Below, piece by piece: positions 24,275-29,425 of a DNA stretch of 38,809 nt. Numbering within the stretch: position 1 is the stretch's first letter; each line of letters starts with the position of its first letter. The notes beneath the pieces were generated by a model. The model was not told the origin of the DNA and ran no database searches. It was given only the letters and a program-made list of their open reading frames with translations. This DNA is from Actinomycetota bacterium. GTDB taxonomy: Bacteria; Actinomycetota; Thermoleophilia; Gaiellales; F1-60-MAGs149. A program made the position numbers and the translations under genes. The DNA is taken from NCBI GenBank assembly GCA_009885805.1, contig VFJZ01000082.1, positions 1 to 38,809 of the forward strand, read 5' to 3'.

Positions 24275-24315
24275 GCGCGTGTCGCAAAGGTGTGCGGCAC
24301 CTTTGCGACACGCGC
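24275..24315 (+). repeat. 31-base repeat, copy 6, extended to a perfect 18-base hairpin
   Basis: The core is 24280-24310. Here the arms are fully complementary and extend to 18 base pairs (24275-24292 with 24298-24315) around the loop TGCGG. No T-run follows, so it is not a classic terminator. It lies 4 bases after the surface-protein frame ends and before the aminotransferase gene. Confidence 0.88.
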
Positions 24316-24344
24316 CGGCCCCGCCTATCCTGTCCCACGGGACA
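24303..24344 (+). promoter_or_regulatory. Possible promoter and operator of the aminotransferase gene
   Basis: TTGCGA (24303-24308, the right arm of repeat copy 6) and TATCCT (24326-24331) are exactly 17 bases apart, each four of six consensus bases. Overlapping the predicted RNA start is an inverted repeat TGTCCC-AC-GGGACA (24331-24344), which could be a repressor operator. The leader would include GGGAG before the ATG at 24362. Confidence 0.38.
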
Positions 24345-24361
24345 ACGACCTGGGAGACGCG

Positions 24362-25747
24362 ATGGCGACCACCGCCCACACGCAGATCGACCGCGAGCGG
24401 ATCCGCGAGCTCGCCGCACGCGAGGAGACGCAACTCAACGCCGAGACGCAGGGCTCCGGCCGCCTCTTCGAGCGGGCGCGGAAGTCGCTCTCCAGCGGCG
24501 TCGCGTCCTCCTACCAGCTGCGCGACCCGTGGCCGATCTACCTCGAGCGCGGCGAGGGCGCCTACGTCTGGGACGTCGACGACAACAAGATGATCGACTT
24601 CCACAACGGCTTCGGCTCGATGGTGCAGGGACACGCCCACCCGGCGATCACCAAGGCCGTGACCGAGCGGATGGCGCTCGGCACCCACTTCGCCGCCCCG
24701 ACCGAGGACGCCGTCGTCGTCGCGGAGGAGCTGCAGCGCCGCTGGGACCTGCCGCTCTGGCGCTACGTCAACTCCGGCTCCGAGGCGACGATGGACGCGA
24801 TCCGCATCGCCCGCGCCCACACCGGCCGCGACACGATCATGAAGATCTTCGGCTCCTACCACGGGCACCACGACTACGTGATGGTCTCGATCGGTGTCGC
24901 CTACGACAAGATCGGCGACCGCGACAACTACGCCTCGCTGCCCTACGGGGCCGGCATCCCGCAGTCCGTCGCGGAGATGACCGTCCCGGTGCCGTTCAAC
25001 GACGCCGACGCCATGGAACGCCGCATCGAGCGCCTGATCCGCGAGGACCGCAAGCCGGCCTGCGTGATCATGGAGGCGGCGATGATGAACCTCGGCGTGA
25101 TCCTGCCGGTGCCGGGATACCTCGAGGCGGTCCGCGAGATCACCCGCAAGCACGGCATCCTCCTGATCGTCGACGAGGTCAAGACCGGCATCTGCATCCA
25201 CCCGGGCGGCGCGTCGGCGCGTTGGAACATCCAGCCCGACCTCGTCACGCTCGCAAAGGCGCTCGGCGGCGGCCTGCCCTCCGGGGCGATCGGCGGCACC
25301 GAAGAGGCCCTCAGCACCGTCACGGACGGCAAGGTCTACCAGGTCGGCACCTACAACGGCAATCCGCTCGTGATGGCCGCAGCGCGCGCGAACCTGCTCG
25401 AGGTGATGACCCCGGACGCCTACGCGCACCTCGACTCCCTCAACGACCACATCCTCGCCGGGTGCGAGGGCGTGATCGCGAAGTACAACCTGTCGGGCTA
25501 CGCCGTCGGCATCGGCTCCAAGGGCTGCGTCACGTTCTCGCCCACGCCGATCACCGACTACGACTCGTTCAAGGCGAACCAGGACGGTGAGCTGAGCGAC
25601 CTGGCGTGGCTCTACAACATGAACCGCGGCATCTTCATGACGCCGGGCCGCGAGGAGGAGTGGACGCTCTCCATCACGCACACGAAGAACGACTGCGACC
25701 AGTTCGTCCGCGTCTTCGACGAGATGGCGCGCGACCTCACGAGCTGA
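24362..25747 (+). CDS. Class III aminotransferase, glutamate-1-semialdehyde aminomutase-like
   Basis: A 461-residue PLP enzyme of the aspartate aminotransferase family, class III. The visible parts are VNSGSEATMDAIRIAR (phosphate-binding), YHGHHDYV, DEVKTG with the cofactor Asp, and the Schiff-base Lys299 in TLAKALGGGLPSGA. The N-terminal SSGVASSYQLRDPWPIYLERGEGAYVWDVD resembles HemL-like proteins, but the context and the IHPGGASARW segment differ from true HemL. It more likely acts on an amino acid or beta-amino acid. GGGAG lies 6 bases before the ATG. Its 3' end overlaps the opposite-strand methyltransferase gene by 11 bases. Confidence 0.85.
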   Translation: MATTAHTQIDRERIRELAAREETQLNAETQGSGRLFERARKSLSSGVASSYQLRDPWPIYLERGEGAYVWDVDDNKMIDFHNGFGSMVQGHAHPAITKAVTERMALGTHFAAPTEDAVVVAEELQRRWDLPLWRYVNSGSEATMDAIRIARAHTGRDTIMKIFGSYHGHHDYVMVSIGVAYDKIGDRDNYASLPYGAGIPQSVAEMTVPVPFNDADAMERRIERLIREDRKPACVIMEAAMMNLGVILPVPGYLEAVREITRKHGILLIVDEVKTGICIHPGGASARWNIQPDLVTLAKALGGGLPSGAIGGTEEALSTVTDGKVYQVGTYNGNPLVMAAARANLLEVMTPDAYAHLDSLNDHILAGCEGVIAKYNLSGYAVGIGSKGCVTFSPTPITDYDSFKANQDGELSDLAWLYNMNRGIFMTPGREEEWTLSITHTKNDCDQFVRVFDEMARDLTS

Positions 25748-27320
25748 GCACACGTCGCGCACGGCCCACGCGAGCGGCGACCGCCGCCGCGTGGGCCCCG
25801 CGCACGTCGTCGGCCGCGCCGACCCCGATCCCGAGCAGGTCGGCGCAGAGTCGCTCCAACGGGTCCCGATCGGTCCGCCCGCACTCCTCTCCGACCGTCC
25901 CGAGCGGCCGACGGAGCAGCGGCGCGAACGCCGCGCTCAGCGCGGGCGCGGCCGCCCGGAGCGCGTCGGCCGGTGGGATGCGCAGCTGCACGAGATTCAT
26001 CCGCTCCACCTTCAGCGGGCCGCCGCCACCGCCGTAGGCGCGCCCCAACGCCTCCAGCTGCAGCCCGGCGACCGACGAGTTGAGGAACGCCGCCAGCGCG
26101 CTCGCCGGAATGCCGTCGGGCGGCCAGATGCGGTACAGCTCGCCGGAGGCCCACAGCTCCGGGTTGAGGTATGCGATATGGCGGTCGCGCATCGTGCGGA
26201 CGGCGAGCACTGGCGCCGGCTCCTGCGTGATCGCGCTCCAGATCCGGCGCGGCCGGACGCCGCTCCGCGCGGGGATGCCCTCCCGCACCGCCCGCTCCTC
26301 CTCGGCACCGAGGCGAGCGGGATCGGCGGTCGAGACGAGCCACCGACGCGGTGCGCCGCCGATGACGACGTGGTGCTCGCCGCGCGTCGACTTGACGATC
26401 GGACGCAGGCAGGCGGGATCGATCGCCCCGGGAGCCGGTCGGTAGAAGAACGCGTCGGCGCCCGTGATCAGGTACGAGCCGACCCGGCACGAATCGCCGA
26501 GCGGCACCCCGCAACCGAACAGCGGTGCCGCAGCCGGTGCCCGCAGCAGCGGACCGCCCCACTTCGGCATCGCCCTCAGATCCGGCCGCGTGATCCGGGT
26601 CGTCCCCGCCCCGACCTGTCGCAGCTCGACCGGCCCGTCCGCGCCACGACGGACGACGACGATCACGGAGTTCACGTCGGCGCCGGCAAACGTCCGCTCG
26701 GCCGGTCGCTCGATCAGTTCGCAGAGGCCGGCGTCGAGCAGGAACCGCCCGAGCGGCACGCCGTAGGCGGCGTCGAGCCAGGCGCTCGTCGTGACGAACG
26801 CGAGCACGCCATCGTCCGCGAGAAGCGAGACGCCGAGCACGAGGAACGCCGCCGCGAGATCGGCCCGGCGCGGCAGCCCGAGGCCCGGGGCGAGCCGCTC
26901 GACGGCGGCCGTGACGCGGTCGGCGTAGCGCCCCGGTCGCCCCAGCGGGTCGACGAGCGACTGGTGACGCACGTAGGGCGGATTACCGACGATAACGTCG
27001 TAGCGTGCCGGCAGTCCGTCGCCCCAGCCGGGATCGAGCGCGTCCCGGTGATGCACCTCGACCCCCGGCACCGCGACGCGCGCCAGCGCCCCGGCGTCGG
27101 CGTCGACGCCGACGAGCCGAGCCGGCGGCCCCGCCACGGCCAGCCAGGCCGCGAGGAAATCACCGGCGCCGCACGCCGGGTCGCAGACGATCGCGTCCGC
27201 CGGTGCCCGGGCCAGGTGTCGCAGGGCGGCCGTACAGGCGGCCTCGGCCTCGATCGCGGGCGTGTAGACGGCTCCGAGCGCGCGCCGCTCAGCGTTCGTC
27301 AGGTGCTCGGCGACGGCCAC
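25737..27320 (-). CDS. TaqI-like N6-adenine DNA methyltransferase, solitary
   Basis: A 527-residue class I SAM-dependent DNA methyltransferase. ALGAVYTP near the N-terminus is the block often found in type I and TaqI-like enzymes. SAM motif I is DPACGAGDF and the catalytic motif IV is NPPY at residues 113-116, which methylates adenine N6. The C-terminal 250 residues, with the RAYGGGGGPLKVERMNLVQLRIP block, look like the TaqI-type target-recognition domain. No nuclease domain is present, and no restriction, helicase or specificity gene lies nearby, so it may be an orphan or a part of a dispersed defence system. GTG start (27318-27320); TACCCT lies 7 bases upstream. Confidence 0.86.
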   Translation of the reverse strand: MAVAEHLTNAERRALGAVYTPAIEAEAACTAALRHLARAPADAIVCDPACGAGDFLAAWLAVAGPPARLVGVDADAGALARVAVPGVEVHHRDALDPGWGDGLPARYDVIVGNPPYVRHQSLVDPLGRPGRYADRVTAAVERLAPGLGLPRRADLAAAFLVLGVSLLADDGVLAFVTTSAWLDAAYGVPLGRFLLDAGLCELIERPAERTFAGADVNSVIVVVRRGADGPVELRQVGAGTTRITRPDLRAMPKWGGPLLRAPAAAPLFGCGVPLGDSCRVGSYLITGADAFFYRPAPGAIDPACLRPIVKSTRGEHHVVIGGAPRRWLVSTADPARLGAEEERAVREGIPARSGVRPRRIWSAITQEPAPVLAVRTMRDRHIAYLNPELWASGELYRIWPPDGIPASALAAFLNSSVAGLQLEALGRAYGGGGGPLKVERMNLVQLRIPPADALRAAAPALSAAFAPLLRRPLGTVGEECGRTDRDPLERLCADLLGIGVGAADDVRGAHAAAVAARVGRARRVLSS

Positions 27321-27347: not shown

Positions 27348-27926
27348 CTACGGTGTGGGCGCCGGCTTGGCCTTCGCTGCCTTCTGCACCGCGACGAGGG
27401 CCTTGGCGAGCCGGTCTGCCCGCTTCTCGGCCGCGAGCAGGTCCTTCTTCGACTGCTCGAGCACCTTGGCGATGTCGTCGAGCGCCTTCTTGTACTTCGT
27501 CGCGGTGTCGTCGACCGCGTCGGAGTAGCCGCGGCGGCGCCCGTCCCTCAGGCCGTCGGTGTAACCTCGCTTCGTGCCGTGCACGTAGCCGCGCGCGAAC
27601 GACTTCTTCGACGCCGTCGACTCGCCCTCCGTGACGCCGGCCGCGAACCCGCCGTCGTAGCCGCTCTTCCGCCCCTCGGCGAGACCGGCGGCGCGGGCAT
27701 CGGCGACGAGCACGCCGATGTCCGCCTGGACGGCGGGGACCTCACGGGCGGCGCCGCCGACGGTGTACGCCGCGCCCGCGGCGCCGACTGCCAAGAGGAC
27801 GCAGGCGAGGAGCGCCAGGACGAAGGTCACCTGTCGCGGCAGCCGCCGCGAGGGGCCACGCGGCAGATCGTCGACCAGGTCGAGTTCGGTCGGGAAGGCG
27901 AGCGCGGTATCGGGGACGTTCGCCAC
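27348..27926 (-). CDS. Membrane protein with long Gly-every-fourth-residue repeat
   Basis: A 192-residue protein of no family I can name. Residues about 33-60 form one hydrophobic span after a basic stretch (SRRLPRQ). From residue 81 to 133 glycine occurs at 81, 85, 89, 93, 97, 101, 113, 117, 121, 125, 129 and 133, with Ala105 and Ser109 filling the gap in the same register and Ala137 after it. The pattern is often Gly-Tyr-x-x. A Lys/Ala/Leu-rich coiled-coil-like tail (about 144-184) follows. The repeat resembles the GX3 runs of Yae1/Lto1 and of FliH-type proteins, which pack helices or bind partners. GTG start; TATAAG lies 9 bases upstream. Confidence 0.72.
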   Translation of the reverse strand: MANVPDTALAFPTELDLVDDLPRGPSRRLPRQVTFVLALLACVLLAVGAAGAAYTVGGAAREVPAVQADIGVLVADARAAGLAEGRKSGYDGGFAAGVTEGESTASKKSFARGYVHGTKRGYTDGLRDGRRRGYSDAVDDTATKYKKALDDIAKVLEQSKKDLLAAEKRADRLAKALVAVQKAAKAKPAPTP

Positions 27927-27988: not shown

Positions 27989-29425
27989 TCAGGACAGGCG
28001 GACGCGCGCCGCGTGCAGCCGGGTGATCGACTCCTCCCGCCCGAGCAGCGCGACCGACTCGAACAGGCCAGGTGACACCTTGCTGCCGGTGATCGCCACG
28101 CGGAGTGGGAGCAGCGCGACGCGCGGCTTCAGCCCGGCCGCCTCGCAAACACCGCGCAGCGCGCCGTCGACGGACGTGGTGTCGAGCACGGCGAGGCTCG
28201 CGAGCGCGGCGCTCGCGGCATCGAGCAACGACGCGGCGGCGGGCATCTCGGCCAGGGCCCGCCACGCGGCGGGGTCGTAGACGACGGGGCGGAAGAGGAA
28301 TCCCGCGAAGTCCTCGAACTCGCCGAGGGTGGCGATCTTCTCCTGGACGAGGGGAACGGCGGCGCCGAGGTCGCGCGTCGCCAGGGGCGAGCCCCGCTCG
28401 ACCAGGTAGCCCGTGAGCCGCCGGCCATAGTCGCCCGGCTCGAGACTGCGCAGATGGACGCCGTTCATCCAGGCGAGCTTGACGTGGTCGAAGACGCCGG
28501 GCGACGGCGACACGCGGTCGAGCGTGAACCGCTCGACGAGTTCGTCCACCGACATGATCTCGGTCGTCGAGTCGTAGCTCCAGCCGACGAGCGCGAGATA
28601 GTTGACGACCGCCTCCGGCAGATAGCCGGCATCGCGAAACTCCTCGACGGAGGCCGCCCCGTGCCGCTTCGACAGGCGCTTGCGGTCGGGGCCGAGGATC
28701 TGCGGCAGGTGCGCCGTCACCGGGTACGCCCGGCCGAGGGCCTCGGCCAGCAGCACCTGGCGTGGCGTCGAGGGGAGCAGATCGTCGCCGCGGATGACGT
28801 GCGTGATGCCGTGATGGAGGTCGTCGAGCACGTTCGCGAGCTGGTACGTGGCGCCGCCGTCCGCTCGCAACAGCACGTGGTCGCCGAGCAGCCGGTTCTC
28901 CCAGCTGACGTCGCCGCGCACGAGATCCGCCACCTCGGTTGCGCCCTCGAGCGGCGTCTTCAGGCGGATCACCGGCTGCCGCCCCTGCGTCTCGAACGCG
29001 GCGACCGCGGCCGCCGACAGCTCGCGGTGGGCACGGGTCGGCGCGGCCGGATCGTCGGTCTGGCGAGCCGCCTCCCGCGCAACGGTCAGCTCCTCCGGCG
29101 ACTGGTAGCAACGGTACGCCAGACCGTCGACGACGAGCGACTCCGCGACCTCGCGGTAGACGTCGGCGCGCTCACTCTGCAGGTACGGCCCGTGCGGTCC
29201 GCCTCGTGCCGGCGACTCGTCGAAGTCGAGGCCGACCCAGTCGAGCGAGCGCTGGATCTGCTCGATCGCGCCGACGGTCTCGCGGGAGGTGTCGGTGTCC
29301 TCGATCCGCAGCACGGCGACGCCGCCGTGGTGACGGGCGAAGAGCCAGTTGTAGAGCGCCGTGCGGACGCCGCCGACGTGGAGGTACCCGGTCGGCGACG
29401 GGCAGAAGCGGACGCGGACCCCCAT
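27989..29425 (-). CDS. gltX: Glutamyl-tRNA synthetase
   Basis: Class I aminoacyl-tRNA synthetase that charges tRNA-Glu, and possibly tRNA-Gln if the organism uses the amidotransferase route. The 478 residues match the usual length. The HIGH-type motif is in SPTGYLHVGG (about residues 9-18), followed by RIEDTD. The KMSKS-type motif is RKRLSKRHG. The C-terminal anticodon-binding domain is present. The ATG at 29423-29425 is 9 bases after TACGAT, with no ribosome site, so it may be leaderless. It is divergent from nfo across only 23 bases and 62 bases upstream of the Gly-repeat protein gene. Confidence 0.96.
   Translation of the reverse strand: MGVRVRFCPSPTGYLHVGGVRTALYNWLFARHHGGVAVLRIEDTDTSRETVGAIEQIQRSLDWVGLDFDESPARGGPHGPYLQSERADVYREVAESLVVDGLAYRCYQSPEELTVAREAARQTDDPAAPTRAHRELSAAAVAAFETQGRQPVIRLKTPLEGATEVADLVRGDVSWENRLLGDHVLLRADGGATYQLANVLDDLHHGITHVIRGDDLLPSTPRQVLLAEALGRAYPVTAHLPQILGPDRKRLSKRHGAASVEEFRDAGYLPEAVVNYLALVGWSYDSTTEIMSVDELVERFTLDRVSPSPGVFDHVKLAWMNGVHLRSLEPGDYGRRLTGYLVERGSPLATRDLGAAVPLVQEKIATLGEFEDFAGFLFRPVVYDPAAWRALAEMPAAASLLDAASAALASLAVLDTTSVDGALRGVCEAAGLKPRVALLPLRVAITGSKVSPGLFESVALLGREESITRLHAARVRLS

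Follow-up and report, generated by a model that had tools for sequence, protein, structure and literature searches.

The window, which is the whole stretch of 38,809 nucleotides analysed here, contains a gene for a single-pass membrane protein with a glycine at every fourth position over a long segment (GX3 repeat). The protein is best explained as an anchor that crosses the membrane once and holds a helical, self-associating GX3 stalk outside the cytoplasm, and we give this explanation an even chance. The gene is located on contig C32 of genome G000 (an assembly of 101 contigs, 95% complete) and reads from a GTG start codon to a product of 192 amino acids, in which no enzymatic or signalling domain was visible. 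The gene and the parts of its product are as follows:

27348..27926, minus strand: gene of the single-pass GX3 membrane protein, 192 aa (open reading frame; orthologues occupy the same place 3' of gltX)
27831..27926, minus strand: predicted cytoplasmic N-terminal part, residues 1-32 (R23, R27, R28 and R31 precede the transmembrane helix)
27768..27830, minus strand: transmembrane (TM) helix, residues 33-53 (hydropathy 2.49 over 21 residues)
27528..27686, minus strand: GX3 repeat, residues 81-133, with A105 and S109 filling the gap (register count and shuffles)
27372..27527, minus strand: charged tail predicted as helix, residues 134-185, before a Lys/Pro/Ala end (AF2 helix)

Glycine register of the GX3 protein

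Translation of the open reading frame confirmed the twelve regularly spaced glycines described in the earlier note. They occupy residues 81, 85, 89, 93, 97 and 101, and then 113, 117, 121, 125, 129 and 133, and A105, S109 and A137 keep to this register; a single further glycine, Gly92, is out of register. Composition-preserving shuffles of the 68-residue segment did not reach 12 glycines in one register in any of 200,000 trials (maximum 10). C-terminal to the TM helix, 10 Gly-x3-Gly pairs were counted versus 1.7 expected, and none of 20,000 shuffles gave as many. The other glycine spacings tested after the TM helix (+1, +2, +3, +5, +6 and +7) showed no enrichment. A DNA tandem repeat as the cause of the pattern was rejected, since none is present in the DNA of the gene. 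Four of the twelve glycines are followed by Tyr (G89, G113, G121 and G133) and one by Phe (G93). These data also support the description of the run as much longer than ordinary GxxxG motifs.

Membrane topology

The protein had rightly been called a membrane protein, as it contains one hydrophobic stretch at about residues 33-53, which two AF2 models placed at 31-53 or 31-51. The GX3 repeat (residues 81-133) begins about 28 residues past this helix and thus adjoins the membrane rather than lying within it. Four Lys/Arg residues flank the TM helix on the N-terminal side versus one on the C-terminal side. The N-terminal side also had more of these residues in 12 of 13 orthologues, with a tie in the remaining one. 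According to the positive-inside rule, this excess favours an N-in/C-out orientation. The window protein ends in KAKPAPTP, and the tails of the orthologues in genus g3 are Pro/Thr-rich. In relatives described below, a kinase lies N-terminal to the TM helix; if it is inside the cell, the GX3 stalk has to be outside. From the charges, the Pro/Thr tails and these kinase-TM-GX3-two-Cys relatives, we infer that the GX3 repeat is located outside the cytoplasm. The N-terminus of the window protein would then be in the cytoplasm, followed by the single TM helix, and the GX3 segment would form a stalk at the external surface of this membrane.

The gltX locus and its conservation

The neighbourhood of the GX3 gene consists of the following genes:

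27989..29425, minus strand: gltX, glutamyl-tRNA synthetase, upstream neighbour (Pfam tRNA-synt_1c and Anticodon_2; the same neighbour in families f1 and f3)
25737..27320, minus strand: Eco57I-type N6 DNA methylase, next gene downstream (Pfam Eco57I and N6_Mtase)
24290..25747, plus strand: class III aminotransferase, convergent neighbour (Pfam Aminotran_3; the same gene in L087 and L093)

Orthologues were surveyed by searching for gltX across the order and reading the DNA 3' of it, with L140 and L141 (family f4) and L149 (f2) left out of the flank reading. In the organism's own family (f1), the GX3 gene was found directly 3' of gltX in 11 of the 12 genomes examined, that is G000 and ten genomes of genus g3. 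It was present at the same place in all five genomes of the sister family f3 (G119-G123), shortened in two of them. A gltX scan of contigs revealed one close relative, L087 (uncultured actinobacterium LaPlata-b_bin-0125), which has the GX3 orthologue at this locus as well. By gene order, the GX3 gene is a conserved gene directly 3' of gltX in its own family and the sister family. When the flank was read in G015, the remaining one of the 12 f1 genomes, no GX3 gene was found at gltX, and it was likewise not at this locus in the f2 genomes with a readable gltX flank. Therefore, it is a gene of a lineage and is not essential across the order. Weak class-level matches in f2 (G073, G089 and G113) were rejected as unrelated frames without the TM-GX3 order.

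In G006 and L087, the GX3 gene is flanked by gltX on one side and, on the other, by the class III aminotransferase that also borders the locus in the window. No Eco57I-type methylase separates the GX3 gene from the aminotransferase in L087 or L093. In G015 (L058/L096), a methylase-like open reading frame directly follows gltX, and the GX3 gene is missing. The pattern of methylase presence and GX3 absence points to a gain or loss at this position of the locus.

The earlier note had made its reading depend on conservation of the register in orthologues. The outcome was mixed, in that a period-four glycine bias was conserved and the unbroken register of some 60 residues was not. In G119, G122 and G123 (f3), 15-17 glycines share one register, a run longer than that of the window protein, and these three and G000 retain a single continuous register. 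In genus g3, the glycines are split into three short blocks that occupy two registers (6-7 GxxxG pairs, p at most 0.005), and G120 and G121 have short GX3 remains only. The i+4 glycine excess reached p values of 0.05-0.07 in the two shortest gltX-locus orthologues and at most 0.005 in the rest. Since the register is broken in g3 and shortened in G120/G121, a long continuous rod is not essential everywhere. In the orthologues, 52% of the residues immediately following Gly are Tyr/Phe, a figure drawn from related and thus non-independent sequences.

Comparison with FliH, Yae1/Lto1 and GxxxG helix pairs

A resemblance to FliH and Yae1/Lto1 had been noticed earlier. It holds for the rules of the sequence, including the aromatic residue after Gly; a relationship was not borne out. 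The weak matches of the 192-aa protein to FliH and Yae1_N models fall mainly on the GX3 stretch. FliH/YscL (PF02108), a regulator of the flagellar and type III secretion ATPase, shares with the window protein an AxxxG(xxxG)nxxxA-type repeat of species-variable length and a preference for Tyr/Phe after Gly, and its repeats are thought to be helical and dimerising. In FliH, Tyr/Phe occupy over 45% of the positions right after Gly, and the authors argue for a helix and for convergence (PMC2674601). FliH is, however, soluble and cytoplasmic, has a conserved C-terminal domain and is encoded with fliG/fliI, whereas the window protein has a TM helix and no FliH domain. Membership in FliH was rejected on these grounds: PF02108 gave no match, the best four NCBIfam FliH models reached 28-37 bits versus cut-offs of 180-293, and the neighbours of the window gene are gltX and a DNA methylase rather than flagellar genes. 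The FliH of the same genome is encoded elsewhere (G000:C35:129071-129442), flanked by fliG and fliI, and is a soluble protein with a short GX3 stretch. The flagellar genes of G000 (L097, L091) comprise fliG, fliH and fliI on C35 and flhA on C78.

Yae1/Lto1 deca-GX3 proteins (PF09811), the Fe-S cluster adaptor for Rli1, have about ten GX3 repeats with glycines needed for partner binding, and the window protein shows this feature with its 12 Gly and the Ala/Ser positions. Mutations of the Lto1 GX3 glycines weaken binding to the partner Yae1, and the C-terminal Trp of Lto1 docks on the Fe-S targeting complex (PMC4523923). Yae1/Lto1 are eukaryotic and soluble, and Lto1 ends in this functional Trp; the window protein, in contrast, has a TM helix, ends in Pro and contains no Lto1-type C-terminal Trp. 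With a Yae1_N score of 17.8 bits versus a gathering score of 27.5, membership in this family was rejected too. Because the Lto1 glycines are needed for Yae1 binding, GX3 stretches can serve as pairing elements. Pairs of TM helices of the GxxxG/GASright class (named in PMC7495484) have a small residue at each fourth position and pack closely in a right-handed manner. The spacing in the window protein is the same, but such pairs act in lipid, whereas the window repeat is charged, lies outside the membrane and is several times longer.

TM-GX3 proteins in the class

A search of the class for the same repeat, as proposed in the earlier note, found further TM-GX3 proteins. The module was defined as one TM helix followed by a GX3 run within about 30-45 residues, an arrangement also present in the window protein. 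The module profile A3 matched 40 of the 399 class genomes at E at most 1e-5. The proteins found are ordered as TM helix, spacer, a stalk with about 10-17 GX3 units and small two-Cys domain, and this C-terminal domain was seen behind GX3 in proteins of f5, f10 and f12. The two-Cys domain gave no sequence match in the PDB. In f5, Pkinase lies N-terminal to the TM helix in L036, L035 and L056 (E 1e-40 or better), and in L031 and L043 a kinase was recognized there by visible kinase sequence and motifs. In these five kinases, the TM helix is combined with an ectodomain of 10-17 GX3 units and the small two-Cys domain at the C-terminus. The class kinases resemble the PASTA-type receptor Ser/Thr kinases (PknB/Stk1) in the order of kinase, one TM helix and ectodomain, with the GX3 stalk and two-Cys domain replacing the PASTA repeats; Pfam scans of three of the kinases detected no PASTA domain. 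The window protein itself, unlike PknB/Stk1, has no kinase. Within the paper library searched, no article on GX3 ectodomains of kinases turned up. In L036, the site noted covers residues 416-452 of a 533-aa open reading frame. The ectodomain of this kinase passes the Yae1_N cut-off (28.8 bits versus 27.5) though the protein is not Yae1, so the model can match an unrelated GX3 stretch. In the single-pass proteins L118, L119, L121, L122 and L123, the GX3 register starts inside the TM helix and continues past it; a second GX3 run, longer than the first, follows after an interruption.

Among 396 genomes sampled phylum-wide, the matches from outside the class were GX3 tails on soluble or low-complexity proteins, or frames that lack the TM-GX3 order. 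TM-GX3 is therefore confined to the class within this sample. Three of the outside proteins (L129, L130 and L136) are nuclease- or transposase-like by eye and carry long AEGRAEGLAEG tails in GX3 register, and a low-complexity KEEGKAEG tail occurs in L132, which by eye resembles DivIVA. The repeats of the window family and of the other module proteins are similar at E of about 1e-6 to 1e-4. As the two-Cys domain is absent from the window protein (and from its gltX-locus orthologues), common descent rests on architecture and repeat similarity, and the likeness of the window protein to the other stalk proteins could be convergence.

Structure models and helix geometry

The AF2 model without alignment showed residues 88-118 as coil and a helix at 119-185 (block pLDDT 77-95 over residues 131-180), which is a helix only and not a fold. 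With a two-row alignment containing one orthologue, helices were predicted at 62-97 and 104-185, with block pLDDT of 50-62 in the repeat and 56-72 over residues 131-180. Since the confidence is low in the repeat, we infer a paired rod rather than observe it. Of the tightly packed helical rod beside the membrane suggested earlier, the position next to the membrane stands, and the tight rod does not follow from a helix of such low confidence. Solved structures were also considered as a template and rejected, because the PDB matches were low-complexity Gly-rich stretches or chance.

According to a geometry calculation, residues spaced strictly four apart on an alpha helix form a stripe that drifts by about 35-40 degrees with each repeat. 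A helix pair following the stripe would be right-handed, with a pitch of about 54-63 Å and a crossing of about 37-42 degrees at a separation of 6.6 Å. This crossing is similar to that of close-packed GxxxG helix pairs (GASright class). A run of 12-17 repeats would span about 70-100 Å as a stalk if it were helical throughout. It counts against a helical stalk that a soluble stretch in which about 25% of the residues are glycine has little tendency to form a helix by itself.

Alternative explanations

The main rival explanation is that GX3 forms a flexible, hydrophilic, disordered extracytoplasmic spacer, in which the four-residue period would reflect a habit of composition and helices would not pair. 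We consider it rather unlikely. It agrees with the low-confidence coil that AF2 without alignment leaves over much of the repeat, with register and length that vary freely among orthologues, and with PDB matches to the profile that are low-complexity and Gly-rich instead of helical rods. It does not agree with a spacing of strictly four, with other short spacings unenriched and no DNA tandem repeat behind it, and the presence of Tyr/Phe after Gly and of Ala and charged residues elsewhere is unlike a random spacer.

Two other explanations keep the association through GX3 and change its place or its partner. If the C-terminus were inside, the protein would be a self-associating, membrane-tethered cytoplasmic adaptor acting in a FliH-like manner on an ATPase or a translation factor. 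The GX3 regions of FliH and Yae1/Lto1 are indeed cytoplasmic and bind ATPases (PMC2674601, PMC4523923), the tail of the window protein is very basic, and NCBIfam FliH models match at E 3e-9, though far under the cut-offs. However, the positive-inside charge puts the N-terminus inside, the kinase-TM-GX3 relatives need GX3 outside if the kinase is inside, the true FliH is encoded between fliG and fliI, and the adjacency to gltX may reflect a shared neighbourhood only; we regard such an adaptor as improbable. More improbable still is a heterodimer, in which the stalk would bind another GX3 protein of the organism instead of a second copy of itself, as the different proteins Yae1 and Lto1 pair through GX3 (PMC4523923). 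The genome, which at 95% completeness could be missing one, yielded no second strong GX3 membrane protein, and its FliH is soluble with only a short GX3 stretch.

In the preferred explanation, the anchored self-associating stalk, two or more helices would pack via the glycine stripe, with the Tyr/Phe at the next position bordering the interface. The window protein would be one of several proteins of this class of Actinobacteria built from a TM helix, a short spacer and a GX3 stalk. In its relatives, the stalk would bear the two-Cys domain and would sometimes be joined to a cytoplasmic Ser/Thr kinase, where dimerisation of the ectodomain would lend itself naturally to kinase control.

Implications

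The broader finding is the recurrence of GX3 stalks as a module of ectodomains in part of the class, kinases included. A possible but doubtful extension is that the class evolved a membrane-proximal, right-handed GX3 double-helix stalk as a general dimerisation or spacer element on Ser/Thr kinases and single-pass proteins, in the place of PASTA, with the window protein as a stand-alone version. The kinase GX3 ectodomain that passes the Pfam Yae1_N cut-off is a pitfall for annotation. Two groups of cytoplasmic proteins account for most descriptions of long GX3 repeats. The small, exported-looking proteins with 10-17 repeats, some of them on kinases, would be tractable for studies of GX3 folding and pairing.
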